Below are positions 34,802 to 45,253 of a DNA stretch of 52,447 nt, one piece after another. The translations under genes and the position numbers were made by a program. Positions within the stretch are counted from its first letter, which is position 1. Each line of letters starts with the position of its first letter. The notes beneath the pieces are model-generated. The model did no database searches. It was not told the origin of the DNA and saw nothing but the letters and a program-made list of their open reading frames with translations. Where the stretch lies: assembly GCA_947566705.1 (NCBI GenBank), contig CANOLA010000009.1, forward strand, positions 1 to 52,447, read 5' to 3'. The stretch comes from an uncultured Lachnospiraceae bacterium. GTDB taxonomy: Bacteria; Bacillota; Clostridia; Lachnospirales; Lachnospiraceae.

Positions 34802-35482
34802 TTACGGCATATCCTCCTCAATTTTCCCATCCCTGATATGAATGATCCTTTCCGTCTGCGCCGCAATTTCCATATTATGCGTAACGATAATGATGGTTTT
34901 CCCCTCCCTGTTCAGTTCTTTTAGAATTTCCATGATTTCCTGCCCGGTTGCCTCGTCAAGTGCGCCTGTCGGCTCGTCCGCCATAATATAATTCGGTTCA
35001 CTGACAAGTGCCCGTGCAATTGCCACACGCTGTTTTTCACCTCCAGACAGTACTGACACTTTTTTATCGCATAGATTTTCTACACCTATCTTCCTTAGGG
35101 TTTTTCTTGCAGCCGACTGTATTTTACGGAGTTTTGCAGAGCTAAACATCAGTGGAAGTTCGACATTATATAAAACTGTTTCATCTTCCACCAGACCATA
35201 ATCCTGCAGGACGAATCCAATTTTTTTATTCCGCATCTTTGCCATCTCTTTATTACCCAGACAACTTACATCAATATCGTCAAGCAGATAACTCCCACTG
35301 TCCATAACATCCAGTAATCCCATAATATGTAACAGTGTTGACTTTCCTGCTCCGGATTTTCCTTTTATCGCCACAATTTCCCCATCCTGAACGGATAGTG
35401 ACAGACCGTTTAAAACAACCTGTTCTTTTCCCCCATTTCCAACCGGATATTTTTTTATAATCTCCTTTAATACAATTCCCAT
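34802..35482 (-). CDS. ABC transporter ATP-binding protein (MacB/LolD type)
   Basis: A 226-residue ATPase for an FtsX-type exporter. Walker A is GKSGAGKST (about 41-49), the signature LSGGEKQRVAIARAL, Walker B YIMADEPTGALD and the H-loop IIIVTHNMEIA. I chose the ATG at 35480-35482 behind AGAGGAAAGGA; the longer open frame upstream overlaps the permease fragment. The start shares a base with the stop of the permease fragment (TAATG). With its permease cut off by an insertion sequence, the transporter is probably non-functional unless another permease substitutes. Confidence 0.88.
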   Translation of the reverse strand: MGIVLKEIIKKYPVGNGGKEQVVLNGLSLSVQDGEIVAIKGKSGAGKSTLLHIMGLLDVMDSGSYLLDDIDVSCLGNKEMAKMRNKKIGFVLQDYGLVEDETVLYNVELPLMFSSAKLRKIQSAARKTLRKIGVENLCDKKVSVLSGGEKQRVAIARALVSEPNYIMADEPTGALDEATGQEIMEILKELNREGKTIIIVTHNMEIAAQTERIIHIRDGKIEEDMP

Positions 35483-35885
35483 TATCCTTTCCTCTTGTAT
35501 AATTCCATTATATTGCACTTTCCTGCTTTTAAAACAAATGAAACCGAAGTCACTGCATATATCGCAAGAAAATATATAAATGTAACTGCCAGTATCCATC
35601 CGCTTTCATTCGAAATTCCCATGGGAAGGATAGACCTGAGTATCCATTTGTATCCTATCAGAAATAACAGATATGAAATCCCTACCACTGTAAATGTTTT
35701 CAGTGCTTCTATCATCATACAATTTTTCGTATCCAGTCCCAGCATATACATAATTGTATATACACGTTCATCCTCAACTTCCCAGATTCTGTTAATTCCA
35801 TTGATACCTGCCACTGTCAAAATCATAAAAATGACAAATACCATACCATTGGTCATAAAAAAATTCCTGTTTTCTATATTAACAG
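35482..35885 (-). pseudogene. FtsX-like ABC permease, C-terminal fragment cut by an IS
   Basis: The frame has three hydrophobic segments (MVFVIFMILTVAGING, VVGISYLLFLIGYKWIL, WILAVTFIYFLAIYAVTSVSFVL) and the usual end of an FtsX-type permease, KAGKCNIMELYKRKG. The open frame continues upstream without a start codon right to the insertion-sequence end at 35886 (reading VNIENRNFFM before the first ATG), so the gene was cut. The rest of the permease, normally several hundred residues, is not found on the other side of the element, so a deletion accompanied or followed insertion. Confidence 0.8.
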
Positions 35886-35900
35886 CACTTTACAAGTTTT
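35886..35900 (+). repeat. Left terminal inverted repeat of the IS
   Basis: CACTTTACAAGTTTT, matched perfectly in inverse orientation at 37329-37343. It lies 4 bases beyond the transposase stop codon. Confidence 0.85.
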
Positions 35901-35903
35901 GAA

Positions 35904-37139
35904 TTACCCAACATGTTTCAAACACAGTTGTTTCAAGGCTTTGGCAATAGCATTTGATTTTATGTGGGTTTCGATGTTTTGCACCAAATTAGCATAAAAT
36001 ACCTGCTGGCGTATCCGCCCGCCAAGGGCAAACCGGAATTCCTGTACGCTGCCGCCCCTGTACTGGGAGAATGTTTCCTCCATATATGGAAAGAGCTTCA
36101 TGGCGCAGTAACTGATGTTGATAAGGTTGACTAACATTTCTATTCCTTTCCGGCTGCGAATCATATAACCGCATAGTGACCAGAAGGATTTCTGTTCATA
36201 GTAGCTTACTTCAATGTTCCATCGGAACGAGTAAAGAAACAGGGGGATATACTGCATCCAGCTGCTCCCTGTCTGGTTCAGGGGTGATTTTTCCTGCCAT
36301 GCGCAGAATACCTGCAGCTGGCTTGGGAAAACCGTACTGAAGAACAAACGCCTGGTTCCACCCTCCCTGCTGGGGGATGTCACATAGGCTAAGACTTCTT
36401 TTGTCCCGAAAATATTTGTTAGGACACGGCGGCAGCCTGTATAATAACCGCCAATTTTCCTGTCCGAAAGGACAAAATCTTCATTAATGGACAGGCGGCG
36501 CCCATGCTTTGCAGGCCTGCCTTTTTTCCCGGTCGGTGCAGGGGCAAGGTCGTATATGACGGAATCTGATCTTGCATTGCCAATCAGGTCAAGGTTCGGG
36601 TAGTCATCCACTATGGAGACAAGTTCCTTCTTCACATACCAGCTGTCACACAGGATGACAACATTCTTCTTCCGGCTGAATTCCGGCATCACCTGCCGCA
36701 CCATGGATGCTGCAAGCGAAAGTTTTGATTCTTTTTTCTGCCACATACGGTATCCAAGCGGGACGGCAAGGTAAGAAACCTTCTGCCGGTTCCAGACAGG
36801 GACACAGAGCATAATACTGACAAAACAGTGTCCGTTCAGATAATTGGAACCGTTATGGGCGGCATGGTCAAAAAGTTTTGACACATTTTCGAATTTCGTC
36901 CCGAATTTAGAGACCATGGTGTCATCTATGCACAGGAATACCGGCTGTGATTCGAGACTGCCGGGGATCAGCCGCAACGCAAGCCTGGATGTAACATTCA
37001 TAAAAACGGAAAAATCTGTTTTGGCATAGGAGCAGGCATAATAAAAGGCGTTTAGTGACCTGAGCGTTATGCCGGATAAAAAGTGCCTGTAGAGGGAACG
37101 GATGGAATCTGCGGATTCCATCGCCAGCATGGACAGCAC
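35904..37139 (-). CDS. IS4-type DDE transposase, start codon unclear
   Basis: 411 residues from the GTG at 37137-37139. DDE-like stretches are PVFLCIDDTMVSKFG (first aspartate), VVILCDSWYVKKELV (second) and FRWNIEVSYYEQKSFW (the glutamate, YREK-like). The frame stays open a further 37 codons upstream to 37250 and reads like a normal IS N-terminus (LLYNDKHIIGRLYKYF, FAAFPAPTAESLFLL). No ATG, GTG or TTG exists there: the codon where a start would be expected is ACG (37248-37250). The true protein is probably about 448 residues and this copy may have lost its start, or it uses a rare start. Confidence 0.82.
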   Translation of the reverse strand: MLSMLAMESADSIRSLYRHFLSGITLRSLNAFYYACSYAKTDFSVFMNVTSRLALRLIPGSLESQPVFLCIDDTMVSKFGTKFENVSKLFDHAAHNGSNYLNGHCFVSIMLCVPVWNRQKVSYLAVPLGYRMWQKKESKLSLAASMVRQVMPEFSRKKNVVILCDSWYVKKELVSIVDDYPNLDLIGNARSDSVIYDLAPAPTGKKGRPAKHGRRLSINEDFVLSDRKIGGYYTGCRRVLTNIFGTKEVLAYVTSPSREGGTRRLFFSTVFPSQLQVFCAWQEKSPLNQTGSSWMQYIPLFLYSFRWNIEVSYYEQKSFWSLCGYMIRSRKGIEMLVNLINISYCAMKLFPYMEETFSQYRGGSVQEFRFALGGRIRQQVFYANLVQNIETHIKSNAIAKALKQLCLKHVG

Positions 37140-37496: not shown

Positions 37497-37553
37497 GGAA
37501 GTATAAAAAATGCGATTCTGCATAAAATAATTCAAATAAAAAATGCGATTTTG
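37474..37553 (+). repeat. Three 33-bp-spaced AAAATGCGATTTTG repeats
   Basis: The core AAAATGCGATTTTG starts at 37474 and 37540, and as AAAATGCGATTCTG at 37507, giving an exact 33-base period (about three helical turns). The first copy is inside the promoter and the last ends 13 bases before the ATG, near the ribosome site GGGGAGAC. The bases between copies are similar but not identical. Confidence 0.85.
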
Positions 37554-37566
37554 GGGAGACGGAACT

Positions 37567-38895
37567 ATGTTTAAAAGAAAAATATATGAAAAACTTGCAG
37601 ACTGGAAGAAAACATCAGACGGAAAAACTGCGCTTCTGGTTGAAGGAGCCAGAAGAACAGGAAAGTCAACAATTGTTGAGGAATTTGGCAAAAATGAATA
37701 TAAAACCTATATCTTAATTGACTTTTCGGTTGCCCCAAAGTCTGTAAAAGAACTGTTCGATGATATGTCGGATTTGGATTACTTTTTCCTTCAGTTACAA
37801 TTACAGTATAAAACAGACCTGGAAGAAAGAAACTCCCTTATCATTTTTGACGAGGTTCAGTTATGCCCGCTTGCAAGACAGGCAATAAAAGCACTTGTAA
37901 AAGACCGCAGGTATGATTATATTGAAACCGGTTCCCTGATTTCCATTAAAAAAAATGTAAAAGACATCCTGATTCCCAGTGAGGAACGCATTATTAATAT
38001 GTTTCCGATGGATTATGAAGAGTTTTTGTGGGCTATTGGGGACATCACAACCTGCCAGCTTTTAAAAAAATGCTATTCTTCCGGTACACCTCTGGGCGAG
38101 CATGTTCACAGAAAGCTCCTTCGGGATTTCCGCCTTTATATGCTGGTTGGCGGTATGCCACAGGCTGTTAATGAATATATTGAAACCAATAATTTAAGAA
38201 AAGTGGATGAAATAAAAAGGGATATTTTAAACCTGTATCACGAAGATTTTATGAAAATTGATTCTACAGGGAAAATATCGCTATTGTTTGATGCAATTCC
38301 GGCAGAACTAAATAAAAATTCTTCAAGATACCAGGTTTCAAGCGTTATGAAAGGCGGACGGGCGGATACGGTTCTGGAACTTATTGCACAGATGAAGGAT
38401 TCAAAAACGGTTCTTGTGGCATACCATGCAAATGATCCGGCTGCCGGTTTGTCCGGCAACATGGATTTGGGAAAGTTTAAAATGTTTCTATGTGATACTG
38501 GGCTTTTTGTTACACAGATGTTCAAAAACAAAAATTTTACTGAAAATATCATTTACGAAAAGCTGTTGAATGATAAATTGTCAGGAAATCTGGGATATCT
38601 GTATGAAAATATCATGGCACAAACACTGGCAGCAAACGGAAACGAACTTTTTTATCACACCTTGATGAATAAATCATCAAGGCATAATTATGAAATAGAC
38701 TTTCTGTTAGCCAGAAAAAACAAAATCTGCCCAATAGAAGTAAAATCATCCAGTTACAAAACACATAAGTCATTAGATGCGTTTACAGAAAAATTTTCTG
38801 ACAGGATTTTGCAGAGGTATCTGGTATATACAAAGGATTATGCAAAGGATCAGGATATGATATGCCTGCCTGTTTATATGGCGCAGTTTTTGTAA
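37567..38895 (+). CDS. AAA ATPase with DUF4143 (AAA_14) domain
   Basis: A 442-residue protein of the common, poorly understood AAA_14/DUF4143 family. Walker A is GARRTGKST (27-35), Walker B LIIFDEVQ (91-98), followed by the family's YDYIETGSLISIKKN and ERIINMFPMDYEEFLW. The C-terminal DUF4143 part ends with EIDFLLARKNKICPIEVKSS, a PD-(D/E)xK nuclease-like pattern. The start at 37567 follows GGGGAGACGGAACT; eight further codons upstream are open but overlap the third repeat. A 59-bp piece of a second copy lies at 34391. Family members are often spread horizontally; function unknown. Confidence 0.88.
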   Translation: MFKRKIYEKLADWKKTSDGKTALLVEGARRTGKSTIVEEFGKNEYKTYILIDFSVAPKSVKELFDDMSDLDYFFLQLQLQYKTDLEERNSLIIFDEVQLCPLARQAIKALVKDRRYDYIETGSLISIKKNVKDILIPSEERIINMFPMDYEEFLWAIGDITTCQLLKKCYSSGTPLGEHVHRKLLRDFRLYMLVGGMPQAVNEYIETNNLRKVDEIKRDILNLYHEDFMKIDSTGKISLLFDAIPAELNKNSSRYQVSSVMKGGRADTVLELIAQMKDSKTVLVAYHANDPAAGLSGNMDLGKFKMFLCDTGLFVTQMFKNKNFTENIIYEKLLNDKLSGNLGYLYENIMAQTLAANGNELFYHTLMNKSSRHNYEIDFLLARKNKICPIEVKSSSYKTHKSLDAFTEKFSDRILQRYLVYTKDYAKDQDMICLPVYMAQFL

Positions 38896-39146: not shown

Positions 39147-39776
39147 TTATCTTGCAGGTCTTATTTTTGCCACAGCATGCGCTGCCATAAAAAACAGACA
39201 TCCTGCAAGAAAATATCCGCAGCCGTAAACCAGCCAGTCAGTCCTGTGAAGTACACTGTACTGGTACCAGAAGCTGTGGGTGCCGATAACTGCAGTAGAA
39301 AAAATGGAATAAACCAGTACCGCAAGGGTTGCAGCCGCAATATTCCCTGTTACCATGCAGAGAAAATAAGCAAGTCCGTGCATAAAAAATATAATTACCA
39401 TCATCTGCAGAACAAGTCCCGTGAGTTCCGTATCCTTCTGCGCCAGAATAAGGGCTGGCAGAAGACATATAAACTGGAGCAGGTAAATCCCAAAGGAAAG
39501 TCCCGTCATGGCGGAAGCATTCCACAGAAGTTCCCCGCCCTGCCCCTGCACATATTCCCGCAGACTGAGAAACAGCCAGAGTGTGGAAACCGCAGGCACA
39601 TAGTTATACATATACTCACTAAACAAAGCTGCCATTCCTGCGGTTTCATAGACCGGACTTTTTCCCAGTTTATATGCAGCAAACGGAATCAGAATATAAT
39701 ATACTGCCAGCGGAATAATAAACATCCCGCGCATGGCTTTTATATGTATCCGGATTCTTTCAAACACTGTAATCAT
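39147..39776 (-). CDS. ABC-2-like membrane permease of a peptide export module
   Basis: A 209-residue integral membrane protein with about six hydrophobic segments (FIIPLAVYYILIPFAAYKL, GLSFGIYLLQFICLLPALIL, LVLQMMVIIFFMHGLAYFL, AAATLAVLVYSIFSTAVI and a last one near WLVYGCGYFLAGCLFF). I chose the ATG at 39774-39776, with GGGAGGTGTGAC before it, one base after the stop of the ABC ATPase. It is probably the second permease of that transporter. The substrate is unknown; the adjacent exported protein or the 12-residue peptide are candidates. Confidence 0.78.
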   Translation of the reverse strand: MITVFERIRIHIKAMRGMFIIPLAVYYILIPFAAYKLGKSPVYETAGMAALFSEYMYNYVPAVSTLWLFLSLREYVQGQGGELLWNASAMTGLSFGIYLLQFICLLPALILAQKDTELTGLVLQMMVIIFFMHGLAYFLCMVTGNIAAATLAVLVYSIFSTAVIGTHSFWYQYSVLHRTDWLVYGCGYFLAGCLFFMAAHAVAKIRPAR

Positions 39777-39777
39777 G

Positions 39778-40638
39778 TCACACCTCCCGCATCCTTTTAT
39801 TATCCAGTTTTTTCTGGATGCAGAGGTAACCGTCCTCAAGCGTTGGTTCTGCCTGAGTCAATGGCAGCATGGCGGCAGATAAAATCCGGTAACAGATTTC
39901 ACCGTTAAATTCAAACTGCTTTTCAATCACATATTTTCCCATGATTTCATTCTCTTTGCCTTTCGGGCAGATATATACCCGTTCCTTTGCTGCATCTGCA
40001 ATCTCCCGGCAGGTTCCGATTTTTAAAATTTTTCCGCTGTCTATGACAATGACGGCATCACAGCAGGCTTCAATATCCTCCACAATATGTGTGGAAACAA
40101 TGACGGTTTCTTCTTTGCCCAGCTGTGACAGGATATTTTTAAAATGCATCCTCTCCTCCGGATCCAGTCCTGCGGTCGGCTCGTCAAATAACAGAAGCTC
40201 TGGTTTTCCCATCAGTGCCTGCGCGATTCCCAGCCGTCTTACCATACCGCCGGAGAGTGAACCGACTCCTGTTTCCGCACTGTTTTCCATGTATACCGCA
40301 TGCAGACAGCGCAGAATTTCCTGTTCTCTTTCGTCCCTTGCGATTTTTTTGGCACTGGCAAGATAACGCATCATATCAAGCACTTTCAGTTCCTTAAACA
40401 ACCCGAACGACTGCGGCAGATACCCTGCCATAACTTCCTTTGTTCCTGCCGGTTTTCCATTGATCAGGATTTCCCCGTTCCAGTCACCATAAATACCTGC
40501 CATGCAGCGCATCAGGGTGGTTTTTCCTGCTCCGTTTTTTCCAAGGAAACCATAGATGCCATTTTCCAGACGACAGTTAATTCCGGCAAGGATTTCCTTC
40601 GGACCAAATGATTTGCCCAGGTTTTTAATCTCGATCAT
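39778..40638 (-). CDS. ABC transporter ATP-binding protein
   Basis: A 286-residue ATPase of an ABC-2-type exporter. Walker A is GKNGAGKT (33-40), the Q-loop YLPQSFGLFKELKV, the signature LSGGMVRRLGIAQAL, Walker B LLLFDEPTAGLD and the H-loop VIVSTHIVEDIEA. About 80 extra C-terminal residues after residue 205 are typical of CcmA/drug-export types. It overlaps the preceding membrane protein by 14 bases and is followed after one base by the second permease, so the three form one transporter unit. Confidence 0.92.
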   Translation of the reverse strand: MIEIKNLGKSFGPKEILAGINCRLENGIYGFLGKNGAGKTTLMRCMAGIYGDWNGEILINGKPAGTKEVMAGYLPQSFGLFKELKVLDMMRYLASAKKIARDEREQEILRCLHAVYMENSAETGVGSLSGGMVRRLGIAQALMGKPELLLFDEPTAGLDPEERMHFKNILSQLGKEETVIVSTHIVEDIEACCDAVIVIDSGKILKIGTCREIADAAKERVYICPKGKENEIMGKYVIEKQFEFNGEICYRILSAAMLPLTQAEPTLEDGYLCIQKKLDNKRMREV

Positions 40639-42364
40639 TTTCTTCCTCCTCCATCTTTTCCAGTTCTTCCTGCATTTGTTCCACTTCTTTTAACTGTTCC
40701 TCTGAAAGCGTCTGATACCAGTCTCCTGTGTCCTGGTAGCTCTCATAATAATACCGCAGATTGCCAGTATCCCCCATCAGCTGTCCTTTTCCGAAATAAT
40801 ATTCCGGATTACCGCCTGCCGGAAGACACCAGAGCGTCAGTCTGTCCCCGGACTGTTTTTCATACCACTGGATAAAATCCAGATATTTCTTGGGATTACT
40901 TTCTACAGCGGTCCGTTCGGCATTCAGCGGCGAGTATAAAACGGTACAGTCTCCGATGGTGGTTTCTTTCATAAAATCACCTGCATATAAAGAAATACCG
41001 TCGCCTGTTCCTTTAAAACAGTTTTTTCCTGCAGAAGGCAGATTGGAATATACGGTCTGTTTTGTATGAACTGTAACCTGGCAGGCCACATCATAGCCAA
41101 ATCCTTCCATCGTATATCCATAATAACCAGGCGTCTGTATATAAACCGGATGAAATCCCGGTACAGGGTAATATTCCAGATAGGCAGGAAGAAAAATCCC
41201 CTGCGAGGTGGAATAACAGTGCGGATTTGAGCCGCTGTAGGTAAAGGTAAGTGCAGTTACTTCCTTTCCCCGTGATTTTACGGTAAGATAATCATTGTCC
41301 TGGTCAAATTCGAGCTTATCCCCGTTCTGGTTTTGAATTTCTTTTATCCGGTATCCGTGGTACAGGGTAAAACAGTACTGTCCCAAATCTTTTTTGTCCA
41401 CACCGTATGTCACCTCTGCGTCCAGCAGCCGGTCAGCAGTAAAATCTGCCTGCATGGATGTGAGCTTAAAATCCGCTTCCAGATTACGAACGGTATCGGC
41501 GTCCGCATACATATAATGAATAAAGTCGCCGTTCCAGAAATCATTCTCCCCTGTTCCAAGACATAATTCCGAGGACGGCATAAGGTACATGCCAAGACAG
41601 CCTGCACCCGCTGCAAAAAGCAGGAGTGAAAACCATTTCTTTTTACGTGGAAACTTCTGCAGCAGAATGACAGCCGTAATTATCCCAAGCCATGCACCAA
41701 TTCTCTGAAAATTGACGTTTTCCACAGAAAAAATATAGTAATGGTTATTCATTCCGCCGTAATGCTGGCTGTACAAATTGATAAAACCAGCCAGACGTTT
41801 CATCCAGCCGTCTGTTCCTGTCAGCATTTCTGCGATTAATGAAATTGTTTTTACATGAAACAGCATATAAAATCCGACAAGGACACAGTAGGCACCAGCC
41901 TCTGATTTCATTCCGGAAACAGCAAGTCCCAAAAGAATGGCAAGCAGATGCGGCAGAAACTGGTGGATGATTACAAGCTTTGCCAGAAACAGCGCCAACG
42001 CAGTATCCGCCAGCTGGAATTTATCCGTCTGGCAGTACATATAAATATAGGTTCCGGACGATACCAGTACGGCAAAAAGCATCAGAAATACAAACTGGGA
42101 AAGCACCTGTCTTAACATACCATGCGGTATACCGGAAATGTTTTCATCCAGACACACCTGTCTGCTTTTTGACTGGAATATGTAGGAAATAAACATAAAA
42201 AACAAAAAGGAAGTCTGGACTGTCTGCAGAATACGGGCAGGCACCTGCAGAAATTCAGTGTAGTCAGCAGCCGCAAGACCATATATATAATAAGCGGTCC
42301 ATGCGGCTGCCAGGCTGATTAAAACTGGTGTTTTAAAAAAACGTTTTGCGTTGATAAAAAACAT
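40625..42364 (-). CDS. Membrane protein with ABC-2-like N-half and large extracellular C-half
   Basis: A 579-residue protein. The N-half (about 1-270) has about seven membrane segments (FFKTPVLISLAAAWTAYYIY, QFVFLMLFAVLVSSGTYIYM and others). The C-half (about 285-560) is hydrophilic and rich in Y, G and D, with FTYSGSNPHCYSTSQGIFLP and EYYPVPGFHPVY. It resembles the N-terminal domain of M1 aminopeptidases fused to ABC permeases, but no HExxH zinc site follows, so the peptidase part appears absent. The last 30 residues are highly acidic. I chose the ATG at 42362-42364 behind AAAGGAAT. The homology is judged by eye. Confidence 0.68.
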   Translation of the reverse strand: MFFINAKRFFKTPVLISLAAAWTAYYIYGLAAADYTEFLQVPARILQTVQTSFLFFMFISYIFQSKSRQVCLDENISGIPHGMLRQVLSQFVFLMLFAVLVSSGTYIYMYCQTDKFQLADTALALFLAKLVIIHQFLPHLLAILLGLAVSGMKSEAGAYCVLVGFYMLFHVKTISLIAEMLTGTDGWMKRLAGFINLYSQHYGGMNNHYYIFSVENVNFQRIGAWLGIITAVILLQKFPRKKKWFSLLLFAAGAGCLGMYLMPSSELCLGTGENDFWNGDFIHYMYADADTVRNLEADFKLTSMQADFTADRLLDAEVTYGVDKKDLGQYCFTLYHGYRIKEIQNQNGDKLEFDQDNDYLTVKSRGKEVTALTFTYSGSNPHCYSTSQGIFLPAYLEYYPVPGFHPVYIQTPGYYGYTMEGFGYDVACQVTVHTKQTVYSNLPSAGKNCFKGTGDGISLYAGDFMKETTIGDCTVLYSPLNAERTAVESNPKKYLDFIQWYEKQSGDRLTLWCLPAGGNPEYYFGKGQLMGDTGNLRYYYESYQDTGDWYQTLSEEQLKEVEQMQEELEKMEEEENDRD

Positions 42365-42435: not shown

Positions 42436-42831
42436 TTACTGATTTGATATGCGAACAGATGCGCTGCAACCTGTTTTAAGATTAGATCTTGTATTTCCAT
42501 ATAATGTTGCTCCTGCTATGGCGAAATAATCCGCTACATCCCATACTCGATAATAGGTTGTATTCTTAGCTACAACGACACTGGTAATTTCTGTATCAAA
42601 TCTGGAGCTAATACCTGCCTGTAAAACAGCCTGAACCTGATAGTCACCTGTTGTTCCATTTGACACTGCAAGACCAATTTTTCCAGTTGTATTTCCAAGA
42701 GGAGATGTGGAAACAACGCTGTCACTTTGTCGTAACAGTGCCATGGAAGCTCCTGCCATAACTGTTCCGGTTACAGAAGACAAAATAACACAGACTGCTA
42801 AAAATGCACCTCCTTTGTTTCTGATTTCCAA
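42436..42831 (-). CDS. Small exported protein, unknown function; start or frame uncertain
   Basis: Up to 131 residues. A positive start (MEIRNKGG) is followed by a secretion helix (AFLAVCVILSSVTGTVMAGA) with likely cleavage after AGA or VMA. The mature part of about 105 residues is rich in T, S, G and V, beta-strand-like, with TTYYRVWDVADYFAIAGATL. The only start for this frame is TTG (42829-42831) without a ribosome site. A good ATG with AAAGGTG (ATG 42848-42850) lies just upstream in another frame; removal of one base between them would fuse them as MKLKNKLEIRNKGG, a better signal peptide. It is the first long gene below the LytTR-type repeats and precedes the exporter genes. Confidence 0.6.
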   Translation of the reverse strand: MEIRNKGGAFLAVCVILSSVTGTVMAGASMALLRQSDSVVSTSPLGNTTGKIGLAVSNGTTGDYQVQAVLQAGISSRFDTEITSVVVAKNTTYYRVWDVADYFAIAGATLYGNTRSNLKTGCSASVRISNQ

Positions 42832-42864
42832 TCTTATTCTTGAGTTTCATGTTCTTTCACCTTT

Positions 42865-43049
42865 GTATGATATTACTGGGAGTTATAAAATCATACGTCC
42901 TTTCTTAGAATTATTTGTATAGTACTTTACGTTACTTTGTTTTATCAGTTCCTAATAAAACAATTCCGACTTTTCTGTACCAGTATATATATGAACTCTC
43001 CCAATAATTTAATAAGCTGTATATAAATTATTGGCAATATAGATACTGG
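42865..43049 (-). promoter_or_regulatory. Structured leader between the 12-codon ORF and the exported-protein gene
   Basis: Three inverted repeats lie here: CCAGTAT/ATACTGG (42980-42986 with 43043-43049) enclosing a perfect 10-bp stem CCAATAATTT/AAATTATTGG (43001-43010 with 43025-43034), and GTATGAT/ATCATAC (42865-42871 with 42890-42896) immediately before the ribosome site of the exported protein. None is followed by a T-run, so they look like RNA structure or regulator sites and not simple terminators. The stretch 42851-43071 has no other gene. Confidence 0.5.
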
Positions 43050-43071
43050 ATGTCAGTTACATCGTAGCCTT

Positions 43072-43110
43072 TTATTTAAAAAAAGGGAACAATGGAATAC
43101 CTAAAAACAT
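43072..43110 (-). CDS. 12-residue hydrophobic peptide, candidate signal or secreted peptide
   Basis: An ORF of 12 codons plus stop encodes MFLGIPLFPFFK. It is preceded by AAAGGAGG (AGGAGG at 43118-43123), exactly seven bases before the ATG, one of the best ribosome sites in this window. It lies 33 bases below a promoter that has two 19-bp direct repeats just upstream. Ten of the twelve residues are hydrophobic or glycine/proline, with three Phe-rich turns and a C-terminal Lys. It has no double-glycine leader, so it would be exported or processed unusually. That it is translated is inference from the ribosome site and context. Confidence 0.5.
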   Translation of the reverse strand: MFLGIPLFPFFK

Positions 43111-43142
43111 CTTTTATCCTCCTTTCGCGTTTGATAAAAGAT

Positions 43143-43170
43143 ATAATAATCATTTTTTTATTCATTACAA
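43143..43170 (-). promoter_or_regulatory. Promoter ahead of the 12-codon ORF and exporter genes
   Basis: On the minus strand TTGTAA (43165-43170), 16 bases and TATTAT (43143-43148). The direct repeats end 3 bases upstream of the -35 box, the usual spot for a LytTR-type activator. Confidence 0.55.
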
Positions 43171-43173
43171 GTA

Positions 43174-43212
43174 TTTTTCGACAAACGACATATTTTTTCG
43201 ACAAACGACATA
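43174..43212 (-). promoter_or_regulatory. Pair of exact 19-bp direct repeats, probable LytTR regulator site
   Basis: TTTTTCGACAAACGACATA occurs at 43174-43192 and again, exactly, at 43194-43212 (period 20). On the transcribed strand each holds GTCGTTTGT, which matches most of the LytTR half-site pattern built around GTT. Pairs of half-sites about two helical turns apart bound by AgrA/ComE-like regulators are well known. The partner regulator gene is 1.3 kb upstream. A target elsewhere is not excluded. Confidence 0.68.
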
Positions 43213-43223
43213 ATTTTTACTGT

Positions 43224-44516
43224 CTACAAGAGAATTTCCACCAAAAACCAGCCATCTTCATTCCGATATTCGATGCTCCCGCCGTACTGTTCAACCACCA
43301 GCCTTACATTGTGGCTGCCCAGACCATGATGCTTTTCTGTTTTTGATGTCATTAGCATGCCATCCCTGATGATGGCAGGGCTGTTTGTGGTGTTTGATGC
43401 CAGAATATAAAGCTGCTCATGAACGGAATTTAATTTAAGGCTGATTTCTTTTTCTTTCATAGCATTCCGGCTGGCTTCAATCGCATTGTTTAAAAGATTG
43501 GACAGTACGGTACATAAATCATACAATTCAATTCGGCTGCTTTCTGTCATATGGCATTTGTAGTTTACGGTAATGCCCAGTTTTTCCGCTTCTTCCCGTA
43601 AATTCTGCAAAACAGCGTCAACTGCCACATTTCCGGTATAGGAGAAAGTATGAAAAATCTCCGATTCTGTTATGTTTCTGTGAATGTATTCTGCAAGCTC
43701 CGGCTGTTCTTTCTCACTGCACATTGCCTGCAGTGCCAGAAGGTGGGCTTTCATATCGTGCTTGTAGGCACGTAGTTTTTCATCACTCCGGATAATGGAA
43801 TCAAACTGGCGTTCCTGCAGACGCATAAAAATTTTTAACTGTTCAAACTTGTATTCCTGCTCCTGCTTATTTTGCAATATAATACCATTCCAAATGGCAT
43901 AAAACAGGCAAAGACCACATATTCCCGTCATTGCAATTCCATATAAATTCAGTTTTTCCAGTGTATAATTATCTCTGCTGCTGATAATCTGTGATATGCC
44001 CATTACACAGACAGAAAATATGGAACACATCCATAGAAGAAAATACTGTTTTCCTTTCAGGGTAATTTCTTCCCATGTTTTTTTTGTTTTAATGTAATAT
44101 AATAAAATAACAAGCATAATGACAGAAGGTACAGCTTCTCCAATTAGTACACAAATTTCATTTTCATATATTTTTTCAAATGTTCCTCCATCATATATAG
44201 CAAAGGAATAAATTATAAAGGTTGAAAAAATAGATACAAGAATTGGAACAGCTGGATAAATGGAAACCCATTTTGTTATACGTCCCTTAAAGCAGGTTAA
44301 GGGCATAATAACTCCCAGAAATAATAAATATATCTCCGGAAAATCATCATTAATTTTATTTAGTTTTATCCAAAAAACAACCGCATAGACCACCAGCAGA
44401 CACAAAAGCCAGCATTTATTCTCCTTTAATTTTGCATGAAACACCACAATATAAACCAGCAGATAATTTAACAGCTCCAGCGTGATAATAACTGCAAGGT
44501 ACAAATAGCTATTCAT
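43224..44516 (-). CDS. AgrC-like sensor histidine kinase (GHKL family)
   Basis: A 430-residue membrane sensor. Six to seven hydrophobic segments occupy residues 1-215. The dimerisation/phosphorylation box is AYKHDMKAHL (H253). The GHKL ATP-binding domain has the N-box LSNLLNNAIEA (about 338-347) and the glycine box HHGLGSHNV (about 396-403). This layout is that of AgrC/ComD-type kinases that sense peptides at the membrane. It overlaps the response-regulator gene by four bases (ATGA). Its 3' end lies 11 bases from the direct repeats. Confidence 0.9.
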   Translation of the reverse strand: MNSYLYLAVIITLELLNYLLVYIVVFHAKLKENKCWLLCLLVVYAVVFWIKLNKINDDFPEIYLLFLGVIMPLTCFKGRITKWVSIYPAVPILVSIFSTFIIYSFAIYDGGTFEKIYENEICVLIGEAVPSVIMLVILLYYIKTKKTWEEITLKGKQYFLLWMCSIFSVCVMGISQIISSRDNYTLEKLNLYGIAMTGICGLCLFYAIWNGIILQNKQEQEYKFEQLKIFMRLQERQFDSIIRSDEKLRAYKHDMKAHLLALQAMCSEKEQPELAEYIHRNITESEIFHTFSYTGNVAVDAVLQNLREEAEKLGITVNYKCHMTESSRIELYDLCTVLSNLLNNAIEASRNAMKEKEISLKLNSVHEQLYILASNTTNSPAIIRDGMLMTSKTEKHHGLGSHNVRLVVEQYGGSIEYRNEDGWFLVEILL

Positions 44517-45253
44517 TGTAACCGCCTCCTCATAATGGTTTTCAAGAACTGTTCATATTTTTCTGTTACCTGTTTTTTATAGGTTCTCCCAACCGGAATT
44601 ACTATTGTCTGGTTTTCCAACGTTAAACCGCTTCCGGTTATTTTTTTAATAAACTGCATATTTACAATAAAAGATTTATGTACACGGATAAACTGTTTAC
44701 TGCTTAACGTATTATTTTCCCAGTGTTTCAGGGAGGAATTCAGCAGAAGCGGGGAATCTCCTTCGCAGTATAATTTTGTATAGTCTTTTTCCGCTTTCAG
44801 ATATAAGATACTGCTCTCCTTAATTTCATATTCCCTATCACTTGTCTGACAGATAATCCGATCACCGTCCAGTTCCTCCATTGCGACAGAAATCCATTTT
44901 TTAACAACTTCCTTTGTCACCGGTTTTTCCTCAAAGCCGATGACCTTCATCCCAAAGGCTGCCTGCATATATTCCCCATGGCAGGTAATAAACACAATCT
45001 TTTTAAACCGGTAATTTTTCCGGAGTTTGTTTTTTATCTGTAATCCGTTCATTCCGTCCATTTCCACATCCAGAAAAAGCAGATCCGTTTCCTTATCCGT
45101 ATTCAACATTTCTTCTCCTGAATGATATATATTTACCTCACCGGAAAGCTGTAATTCTTTGAAGGACTGTTGAATAATACTTTTTACCGATTCGGTATAC
45201 AAAAAATTATCATCACACACGGCAATTCGGAATTTCTCTCTTTTGTATTTCAT
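44513..45253 (-). CDS. LytTR family response regulator
   Basis: A 246-residue cytosolic regulator. The receiver domain (about 8-125) has acidic residues D14-D15, the phospho-acceptor D62 in LLFLDVEMDGMNG and the conserved lysine in EEKPVTK. The LytTR DNA-binding domain (about 140-240) shows LYLKAEKDYTKLYCEG, FIRVHKSFIVNMQFIKKI and IVIPVGRTYKK. GAGGTGAATAT precedes the ATG. It forms a two-component pair with the kinase and probably controls the promoter at 43143. Confidence 0.92.
   Translation of the reverse strand: MKYKREKFRIAVCDDNFLYTESVKSIIQQSFKELQLSGEVNIYHSGEEMLNTDKETDLLFLDVEMDGMNGLQIKNKLRKNYRFKKIVFITCHGEYMQAAFGMKVIGFEEKPVTKEVVKKWISVAMEELDGDRIICQTSDREYEIKESSILYLKAEKDYTKLYCEGDSPLLLNSSLKHWENNTLSSKQFIRVHKSFIVNMQFIKKITGSGLTLENQTIVIPVGRTYKKQVTEKYEQFLKTIMRRRLQ

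Follow-up and report, generated by a model that had tools for sequence, protein, structure and literature searches.

A 52,447-nucleotide stretch of DNA from an uncultured Lachnospiraceae bacterium (the window, meaning that whole stretch) contains a locus that may be a self-inducing LytTR system. Its first product would be a very short peptide that undergoes no processing and probably serves as the ligand of the sensor kinase encoded beside it. We regard this reading as evenly balanced between right and wrong. Judged from the sequence, the 12-codon ORF at its center is likely a real gene occupying the slot of a signal peptide. It may represent an overlooked type of bacterial chemical signal, because it sits where a quorum-sensing signal gene often does and relatives have similarly tiny genes in that place.

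Organization of the locus

All the parts named in the original prediction were found on the minus strand and in the stated order (Table 1): first the LytTR regulator and the AgrC-like kinase, then the paired repeats with the promoter-like site behind them, next the 12-codon ORF, and after it the genes for the small exported protein and the ABC proteins. The regulator and kinase genes overlap by 4 nt, and the small ORF lies 240 nt from the exported-protein gene.

Table 1. Features of the candidate signaling locus, in transcriptional order
Feature	Position	Strand	Details
LytTR response regulator	44513..45253	-	Pfam LytTR E 1e-15, Response_reg E 5.5e-12
AgrC-like GHKL sensor kinase	43224..44516	-	PF14501 E 6e-21
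Repeat copies	43174-43193 and 43194-43213	-	19/20 identical
LytTR half-site 1, GTCGTTTGT (putative)	43201..43209	-	20 nt start-to-start to half-site 2
LytTR half-site 2, GTCGTTTGT (putative)	43181..43189	-	11 bp past half-site 1, 10 bp ahead of -35
Promoter-like site, TTGTAA-16-TATTAT	43143..43170	-	9/12
Leader RNA with small ORF and 240 nt behind	42835..43137	-	predicted structured
Ribosome site, AAAGGAGGA	43117..43125	-	ideal for 12-codon ORF
12-codon ORF, MFLGIPLFPFFK	43072..43110	-	read directly from sequence
Small exported protein	42436..42831	-	TTG start; 39% identical relative in another genus
ABC permease, M1-aminopeptidase-like C-terminal domain, no HExxH	40625..42364	-	
ABC ATPase	39778..40638	-	PF00005; 56% to relative over 218 residues
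Second ABC membrane protein	39147..39785	-	32% to relative

What had been described as one ABC exporter (39147-42364) is three ABC genes. The ORF for the exported protein opens at TTG. Because the ATG at 42850, which has a good ribosome site, opens a different frame, this gene is either TTG-started or frameshifted. The predicted fold of its product had a mean pLDDT of 50 and a hint of all-beta structure. Neither this secreted protein nor the M1-peptidase-like permease gave a convincing family in Pfam or NCBIfam, and the kinase scored under every NCBIfam cut-off shown. No kinase match was confirmed in the genome contigs. A search of the plasmid collection gave no match. The ATPase weakly matched the model for the modulin exporter PmtC (96.8 bits, cut-off 375). 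A second ATPase, at 34802-35482, had TIGR03608 as its best match; neither window ATPase reached the cut-off of that model.

Operator and promoter-like site

The paired repeats predicted beside the kinase pair are two adjoining 20-nt copies. Their core, TGTCGTTTGTCGA, is unique in the window even at 2 mismatches, where shuffles give 0.92. Among 137 kinase units surveyed, direct repeats just downstream of the kinase were spaced 20 nt apart in 16 and 21 nt apart in 11, and any other spacing from 12 to 32 nt occurred in 0-2 units. With near-duplicates removed, the counts were 15/133 and 10/133. A paper on LytTR Regulatory Systems (PMC6193735) gives 9-bp repeats with a spacer of 11-13 bp, about 10 bp from the -35. 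In the window, the -35 begins exactly 10 bp behind the second 9-mer. Given the spacing statistic and a geometry like that in the paper, the repeats are very probably the operator of the LytTR regulator, as had been proposed.

The promoter-like site lies where it was predicted; taken by itself it does not exceed chance, with 5 such sites in the kilobase against 4.0 in shuffles. Elsewhere in the genome, a sequence on C39 that looked like another copy of the promoter region was rejected as an AT-rich chance match.

The 12-codon ORF and the agrD position

The ribosome site predicted ahead of the small ORF reads AAAGGAGGA (43125-43117). The ORF is the window's only ATG ORF of 5-40 codons with a Shine-Dalgarno (SD) match of at least 8 in the 392-nt gap, and just 15 of 20,000 first-order Markov copies of that gap contained one. 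The peptide, MFLGIPLFPFFK, does lack a double-glycine leader, as was first noted, and contains no Cys, Ser, or Thr for lactone closure; no AgrB was found in the contig. No orthologue of the 12-mer was found.

This ORF occupies the position of agrD in four related cassettes (L069, L079, L082, and L084), where AgrD lies between the kinase and the secreted protein (by eye; TIGR04223 over cut-off). Three of them, L069, L079, and L084, also have AgrB (PF04647). Re-scanning the slot in the 137 units (8-60 codons, SD match at least 7, ORFs within longer genes excluded) gave an ORF in nine: AgrD in L100, L128, L170, and the near-duplicate L193 (TIGR04223 was run on the first three), short ORFs of 12-19 codons in the window, L114, and L092, and the remainder in L159 and L021.

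Short ORFs in related loci

The L114 kinase had 12 matches in 397 genomes of the family, its own included. Their slot held an ORF of 16-21 codons in 8, none in 3, and a contig end in 1; the ORFs of L220 and L223 were taken by eye and have weak SD matches. This set was drawn by similarity to the L114 kinase, so the grouping of recruited homologues with L114 is by construction. Under a uniform rule (10-25 codons, SD match at least 8), 4 of the 10 evaluable homologues besides L114 passed, against a Markov expectation of 0.00. The genes that come next at L114 encode a C39 peptide exporter and small proteins, among them one whose class II bacteriocin match falls below threshold. The L213 ORF has an alternative in-frame start ten codons earlier, and internal stops interrupt the L216, L217, and L223 kinase frames. 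Excluded from the class were a 25-codon match far downstream in L217 (+425) and an 11-codon ORF in L169, which hinges on the point where its near-duplicate L177 diverges. The L092-kinase homologues that were judged (L205, L207, L208, and L209, leaving L206 and L210 aside) had no short ORF in the slot. The expectation that similar ORFs would accompany LytTR pairs in other genomes is borne out for the class and not for the exact locus, since the window kinase has no orthologue in 61 other genomes of the genus (best partial match 36%).

Across the whole survey, ORFs of 10-25 codons were modestly enriched at an SD match of at least 8 (3/137, Markov 0.57), hardly at 7 or more (3/137, 1.73), and not at 5 or more (29/137, 29.43).

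The window regulator sits in a 15-leaf clade (support 0.968), with L221, whose peptide is MPELDIFYWLIKVIWP, as its sister (support 0.918). It fell there, as did L095 from the same genome (19 codons, weak SD), though neither was recruited through L114. Ten loci of this clade, the window among them, have a leaderless ORF of 12-21 codons in the slot, with a weak ribosome site in 3 of the 10. Four others (L030, L097, L217, and L222) have no clear short ORF, the ambiguous MVTLESILNEN of L222 being scored as none. Set against the proposed short-peptide LytTR class, the window has a regulator in the clade and, right after the operator, a leaderless ORF of 10-25 codons with an SD match, but its kinase lies outside the kinase clade (nearest L027 and L026). 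Its peptide is also shorter than the others and has no WE[W/Y] motif.

Possible roles of the short peptide

We propose an Agr-like autoinduction locus with no local AgrB. The kinase, with its membrane N-terminus and GHKL core, would phosphorylate the LytTR regulator, which would then bind the pair of half-sites lying 10 bp ahead of the -35 and turn on a single operon. This would encode first the 12-residue leaderless peptide, then the small secreted protein, then the ABC transporter, whose permease bears an M1-peptidase-like outer domain lacking the catalytic motif. The peptide would be exported by this ABC transporter or a different one, probably with no processing and possibly with its formyl group retained, and as the kinase ligand it would close a positive loop. 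The gene order, the repeats and their geometry, the ideal ribosome site, and the recurring slot ORFs in the clade can be read in the sequences compared; promoter activity, translation, export, and sensing of the peptide we infer.

The short peptides could instead be effectors, that is, leaderless amphipathic antimicrobial or membrane-active products under quorum or stress control, exported by ABC transporters while the kinase senses something else. Many class members do end in a hydrophobic, aromatic C-terminal stretch (by eye), exporters lie near some loci (the window, L095, and L114), and the window ATPase has its weak resemblance to the PmtC model. We nevertheless consider this reading unlikely: L214 and L221 have no exporter among the downstream genes seen, the next gene of L092 encodes a large secreted protein, and no immunity gene was recognized, short of a systematic search. 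To our knowledge, 12-21 residues is also below the size of known leaderless bacteriocins.

Somewhat less probable again is that the ORF serves as a regulatory leader (uORF), or as an mRNA-stabilizing ribosome site, whose translation tunes the RNA fold ahead of the secreted-protein gene, the peptide being functionless. The leader is predicted to fold strongly (-63.9 kcal/mol, z -3.54, equalled by 0 of 100 shuffles), and a predicted hairpin takes in the end of the small ORF. Against this, an amino-acid motif, [I/F]WE[W/Y], is common to the short peptides of four homologues, and a simple scan of the same strand of the leader found no terminator. The short ORF of L214, moreover, is followed by no likely same-strand gene: before the convergent kinase gene, the only same-strand ORF of at least 90 codons is a 97-codon TTG frame that is mostly antisense to that gene. 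Rfam gave one match to the leader, which is not credible. The leader was rejected as a repeated element: 62 genomes of the genus gave itself and three minor matches (its own hairpin on the opposite strand, 21 nt on C4, and a weak match of 32 nt in G481).

It is improbable that the kinase responds to a cyclic AgrD peptide from another locus of the genome, the local agrBD having been lost and the 12-codon ORF being roleless. The four cassettes with AgrD in the slot fit such a history, as do the two AgrB genes (PF04647) in the genome, on C69 and C2 only and none on the window contig, C9. Each of these AgrB genes, however, has its own regulator and kinase alongside (the C2 kinase is truncated by the contig end), and we rejected them as orphan signal suppliers; nor would an ideal ribosome site be expected to survive decay. 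Because the assembly is 84% complete, a third AgrB may have been missed.

An ORF and a ribosome site that both arose by chance would suit a mere 12 codons, the missing orthologue, and the weak overall enrichment, but this is very improbable given the Markov result, the correct position after the operator and promoter-like site, and the slot filled in ten regulator-clade loci, window counted.

Relation to known systems and implications

With Agr (agrBDCA) and clostridial agr-like systems, the locus shares the LytTR regulator, the AgrC-type GHKL kinase, a paired-repeat operator, and a peptide gene in the adjacent operon, and related cassettes hold real agrD and agrB genes. It differs in that the contig has no AgrB and the peptide has neither a Cys/Ser/Thr ring residue nor an AgrD-type tail. 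In ComCDE, Blp, and plantaricin systems, a peptide gene and an exporter are under the control of a LytTR-kinase pair. The relative L114, with its C39 exporter and bacteriocin-like protein, resembles these, whereas the window peptide has no double-glycine leader and a scan of 10 window proteins gave no C39 exporter. Lactococcin 972-type cassettes encode a small secreted protein, then a membrane protein and an ATPase; the window exported protein matches no bacteriocin family, and bacteriocin and ABC models scored below cut-off. SHP/Rgg and ComRS pheromones likewise have very short hydrophobic precursors, but they are read intracellularly by Rgg or ComR, whereas the window encodes a membrane kinase beside the peptide. 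The LytTR Regulatory Systems, as PMC6193735 describes them, have a membrane inhibitor and no kinase, unlike the window locus.

We put forward, with somewhat less than even confidence, that the Lachnospiraceae use peptide pheromones of a class not previously described: 12-21 codons long, with no leader, AgrB-type enzyme, or ring chemistry, encoded behind LytTR operators, read by AgrC-like kinases, differing between kinases, and accompanied by varied exporters and secreted effectors. In searches of the open-licence literature, no paper was recognizable as a description of such short ORFs beside LytTR pairs, which is weak evidence of absence. Independently of this, we describe a cassette in which the gene for a small secreted protein is followed by ABC genes, including a permease with an M1-peptidase-like domain; it lies beside agrD or agrB in several genomes.

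The Lachnospiraceae are a gut-associated family. With 21 kinase matches in this genome and only two AgrB genes, many of the AgrC-like kinases lack an obvious ligand. If the proposed class exists, its members would rank with the smallest known genes for an extracellular signal, short enough for gene callers to skip. If very short unannotated ORFs of this kind encode ligands, orphan kinases of gut bacteria would become testable with synthetic 12-21-mers.

Locus Layout and the 12-Codon ORF

The series in the original prediction, from regulator through kinase, repeats, promoter-like site and short ORF to exported protein, is present in full and in that order on one strand. ABC genes also lie at 39147–42364, where a single exporter had been proposed, and they number three. 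The long ORF of the exported protein starts with TTG (42831), and the best-placed ATG (42850) is in another frame; the gene has either a weak start or a frameshift.

Features of the locus and their positions in the window
Feature	Position	Strand
LytTR response regulator	44513–45253	−
GHKL kinase, AgrC kind	43224–44516	−
Two direct repeats, 20 bp each	43174–43213	−
Promoter-like site	43143–43170	−
12-codon ORF, preceded by AAAGGAGGA	43072–43110	−
Small exported protein	42436–42831	−
ABC gene	40625–42364	−
ABC gene	39778–40638	−
ABC gene	39147–39785	−

The 12-codon ORF exceeds chance. It is the one ATG ORF of 5–40 codons in the whole window with a ribosome-site match score (SD) of at least 8. 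When the 392-nt gap was simulated 20,000 times with a first-order Markov model, a crude null, 15 of the simulated sequences held such an ORF. No orthologue of the window kinase was found in the 61 other genomes of the genus.

Probable Operator Repeats

We gathered 137 kinase units by profile and measured direct repeats (an 11-mer recurring with at least 10/11 identity, at spacings of 12 to 32) in a stretch reaching from 15 nt upstream to 160 nt downstream of each pair. A 20-nt spacing occurred in 16 units and a 21-nt spacing in 11, while every other spacing scored 0–2; removal of four near-duplicates left 15/133 and 10/133. Repeats at 20 or 21 nt directly behind AgrC/LytTR pairs look like a recurrent rule across these genomes, one that would help to predict which operon an orphan pair controls. 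A second recurrent layout was seen at five loci (L005, L007, L011, L023, L091), where short kinases of 216–247 residues are followed by repeats with no strong small ORF; what by eye is a gene for an ABC transporter comes next, and L091 has two of these.

In the window, the 9-mers GTCGTTTGT lie at 43209–43201 and 43189–43181 with an 11-bp spacer, and 10 bp separate their end from the −35. For promoters of this kind, PMC6193735 gives a 12-bp spacer, with 11-bp and 13-bp spacers in the minority, and a preferred distance of 10 bp. The window shares the core TATGTCGTTTGT with L015 (TTTATGTCGTTTGTGCAA, repeats 20 nt apart), a regulator and kinase pair from the same genus, despite the L015 regulator falling outside the set closest to that of the window. 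The CGTT of the repeats agrees with the general LytTR consensus.

Short ORFs at Other Loci

Two other loci of the same genome share the window layout. L095 has regulator, kinase, repeats, 19 codons (MVYGSNDFLELLRRLLGSG, weak SD), a secreted protein and an FtsX-type ABC transporter; L092 has repeats, 18 codons (MICSGLKILLEFVSNLWK) and a secreted protein of 1261 residues. The regulator closest to the window's in the first survey was that of L114 (genome G471), where the repeats are followed by MLLSASSEIWEWIWGLLRN with AAAGGAGGTGA ahead of it. Farther on come a C39 exporter and several small proteins, among them one that matches a class II bacteriocin model below threshold.

The L114 kinase gave 12 matches in 10 of 397 family genomes, itself included. 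Eight carry an ORF of 16–21 codons in the corresponding slot: L212 (the L114 locus itself), L213 (MYFANDNTIWEWILSILNGGR), L214 (MMTFSGLYRDIWEYIFKLLGK), L223 (MWLNGDLSFWEWMKKLLGGK), L218 (MYFSTGESLWKLLKELFGW), L219 (MILFDLLDLLLWLFGGRR), L220 (MATTNGVLDGYYWFLLFFG) and L221 (MPELDIFYWLIKVIWP), those of L220 and L223 being taken by eye with weak SD matches. The ORF is missing in L215, L217 and L222, and L216 runs into the end of its contig. Internal stops interrupt the kinase frame in L216, L217 and L223. Under a uniform rule (10–25 codons, SD at least 8), 4 of the 10 evaluable homologues, L114 excluded, had an ORF versus 0.00 in the Markov null, and the survey gave 3/137 versus 0.57. At SD of at least 7 the values were 6/10 versus 0.27, counting a doubtful L217 match, and 3 versus 1.73; at SD of at least 5 the survey showed no excess (29 versus 29.43). 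At L231 (G083:C37), the short ORF MILFDLLDLLLWLFGGRR is followed by a protein of 371 residues, by an ABC pair and by what resembles, by eye, a radical SAM protein of the B12 type; together they may form a peptide-modification cluster.

The regulator tree (81 leaves) placed the window inside a 15-leaf clade (0.968) as sister to L221 (0.918). The short ORF occurs in 10 of these 15 loci, the window counted; it is missing in L030, L097, L217 and L222, and L216 is not judgeable. Most of the clade was recruited through L114 and so groups with it by design, which does not apply to the window or to L095. The kinase tree, with 120 leaves and no L223, placed L095 in the group with weak support (0.624) and the window kinase outside it. 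For the window, this conflict between the trees counts against the favoured reading of an autoinducing short-peptide system.

Secreted Protein and ABC Cassette

A search of 250 family genomes with the exported protein found, apart from the protein itself, a single relative (39%), in G230 of the same family, where the same four genes stand in the same order. They are preceded by a short C-terminal stretch and a 49-mer that by eye resemble AgrB and AgrD, respectively; the 49-mer matched no NCBIfam or Pfam model. The permease profile hit 21/397 family and 3/60 genus genomes, own genome counted in both. At L069, L079, L082 and L084, the kinase-permease gap holds AgrD (TIGR04223 over cut-off) and a secreted protein of 124–134 residues; AgrB (PF04647) is also present in L069, L079 and L084. 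At L070, AgrB lies ahead of the permease, around which neither kinase nor secreted protein was identified. Fourteen such secreted proteins gave no convincing Pfam or NCBIfam match (best E 0.048 and 0.0036). L118 and L119 carry the ABC cassette with no LytTR pair within the flanks examined.

The predicted permease model (mean pLDDT 60; mostly 70–90 over residues 300–380 and 420–480) combines a helical membrane half with a C-terminal domain resembling M1 aminopeptidases (Foldseek, best E 4.5e-9, TM 0.29 on the full query). Since HExxH is missing from 29 of 30 permeases (L085 is the exception), this domain probably binds rather than cuts.

Three further observations follow. A lactococcin-972-like ABC ATPase (34802–35482, −; TIGR03608, 227 bits, cut-off 255) is preceded by an FtsX-type permease fragment (35482–35856, −) ending near a DDE transposase (35904–37139, −); 34802–37139 probably holds a second exporter disrupted by insertion. 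An AAA_14/DUF4143 ATPase (37543–38895, +) lies on the other strand between transposase and cassette. A 21-nt stretch spanning the exported gene's ribosome site recurs exactly at L203 (the G000:C4 contig end), ahead of another small protein, secreted by appearance.

Interpretation

The most likely reading, to which we give about even credence, is an autoinducing LytTR system whose unprocessed short peptide would be both its first product and the probable ligand. The peptide may instead be an effector, which we consider rather unlikely. Somewhat less likely is a leader ORF with a structured RNA: the segment 42835–43137 (−) has several predicted hairpins and folds better than 100/100 shuffles (z −3.54), with no credible Rfam match. 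At L214 the gene arrangement argues against a leader role, because the closest gene points toward the short ORF and the sole other nearby same-strand frame of at least 90 codons is a TTG frame mostly antisense to that convergent gene. That a cyclic signal comes from elsewhere seems improbable. Pfam AgrB matches in the genome are confined to C69 and C2, each adjoined by a regulator and kinase (the C2 kinase cut by the contig end), and none was found for the window locus, a result not final in a genome 84% complete. A chance ORF is the least credible explanation and a very improbable one.

As a putative autoinducing system, the locus would operate in like manner to Agr and Com/Blp. It does not belong to Agr, in that no AgrB was found and the peptide has no ring residue, nor to Com/Blp, since the peptide has no double-glycine leader, as had been noted, and none of the window proteins scanned is a C39 exporter. 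The presence of a kinase separates it from the LytTR Regulatory System, and it is no lactococcin 972 cassette, as the models for that stayed below cut-off. If the peptide is the signal, the locus would add a new form to quorum sensing by peptide and kinase.
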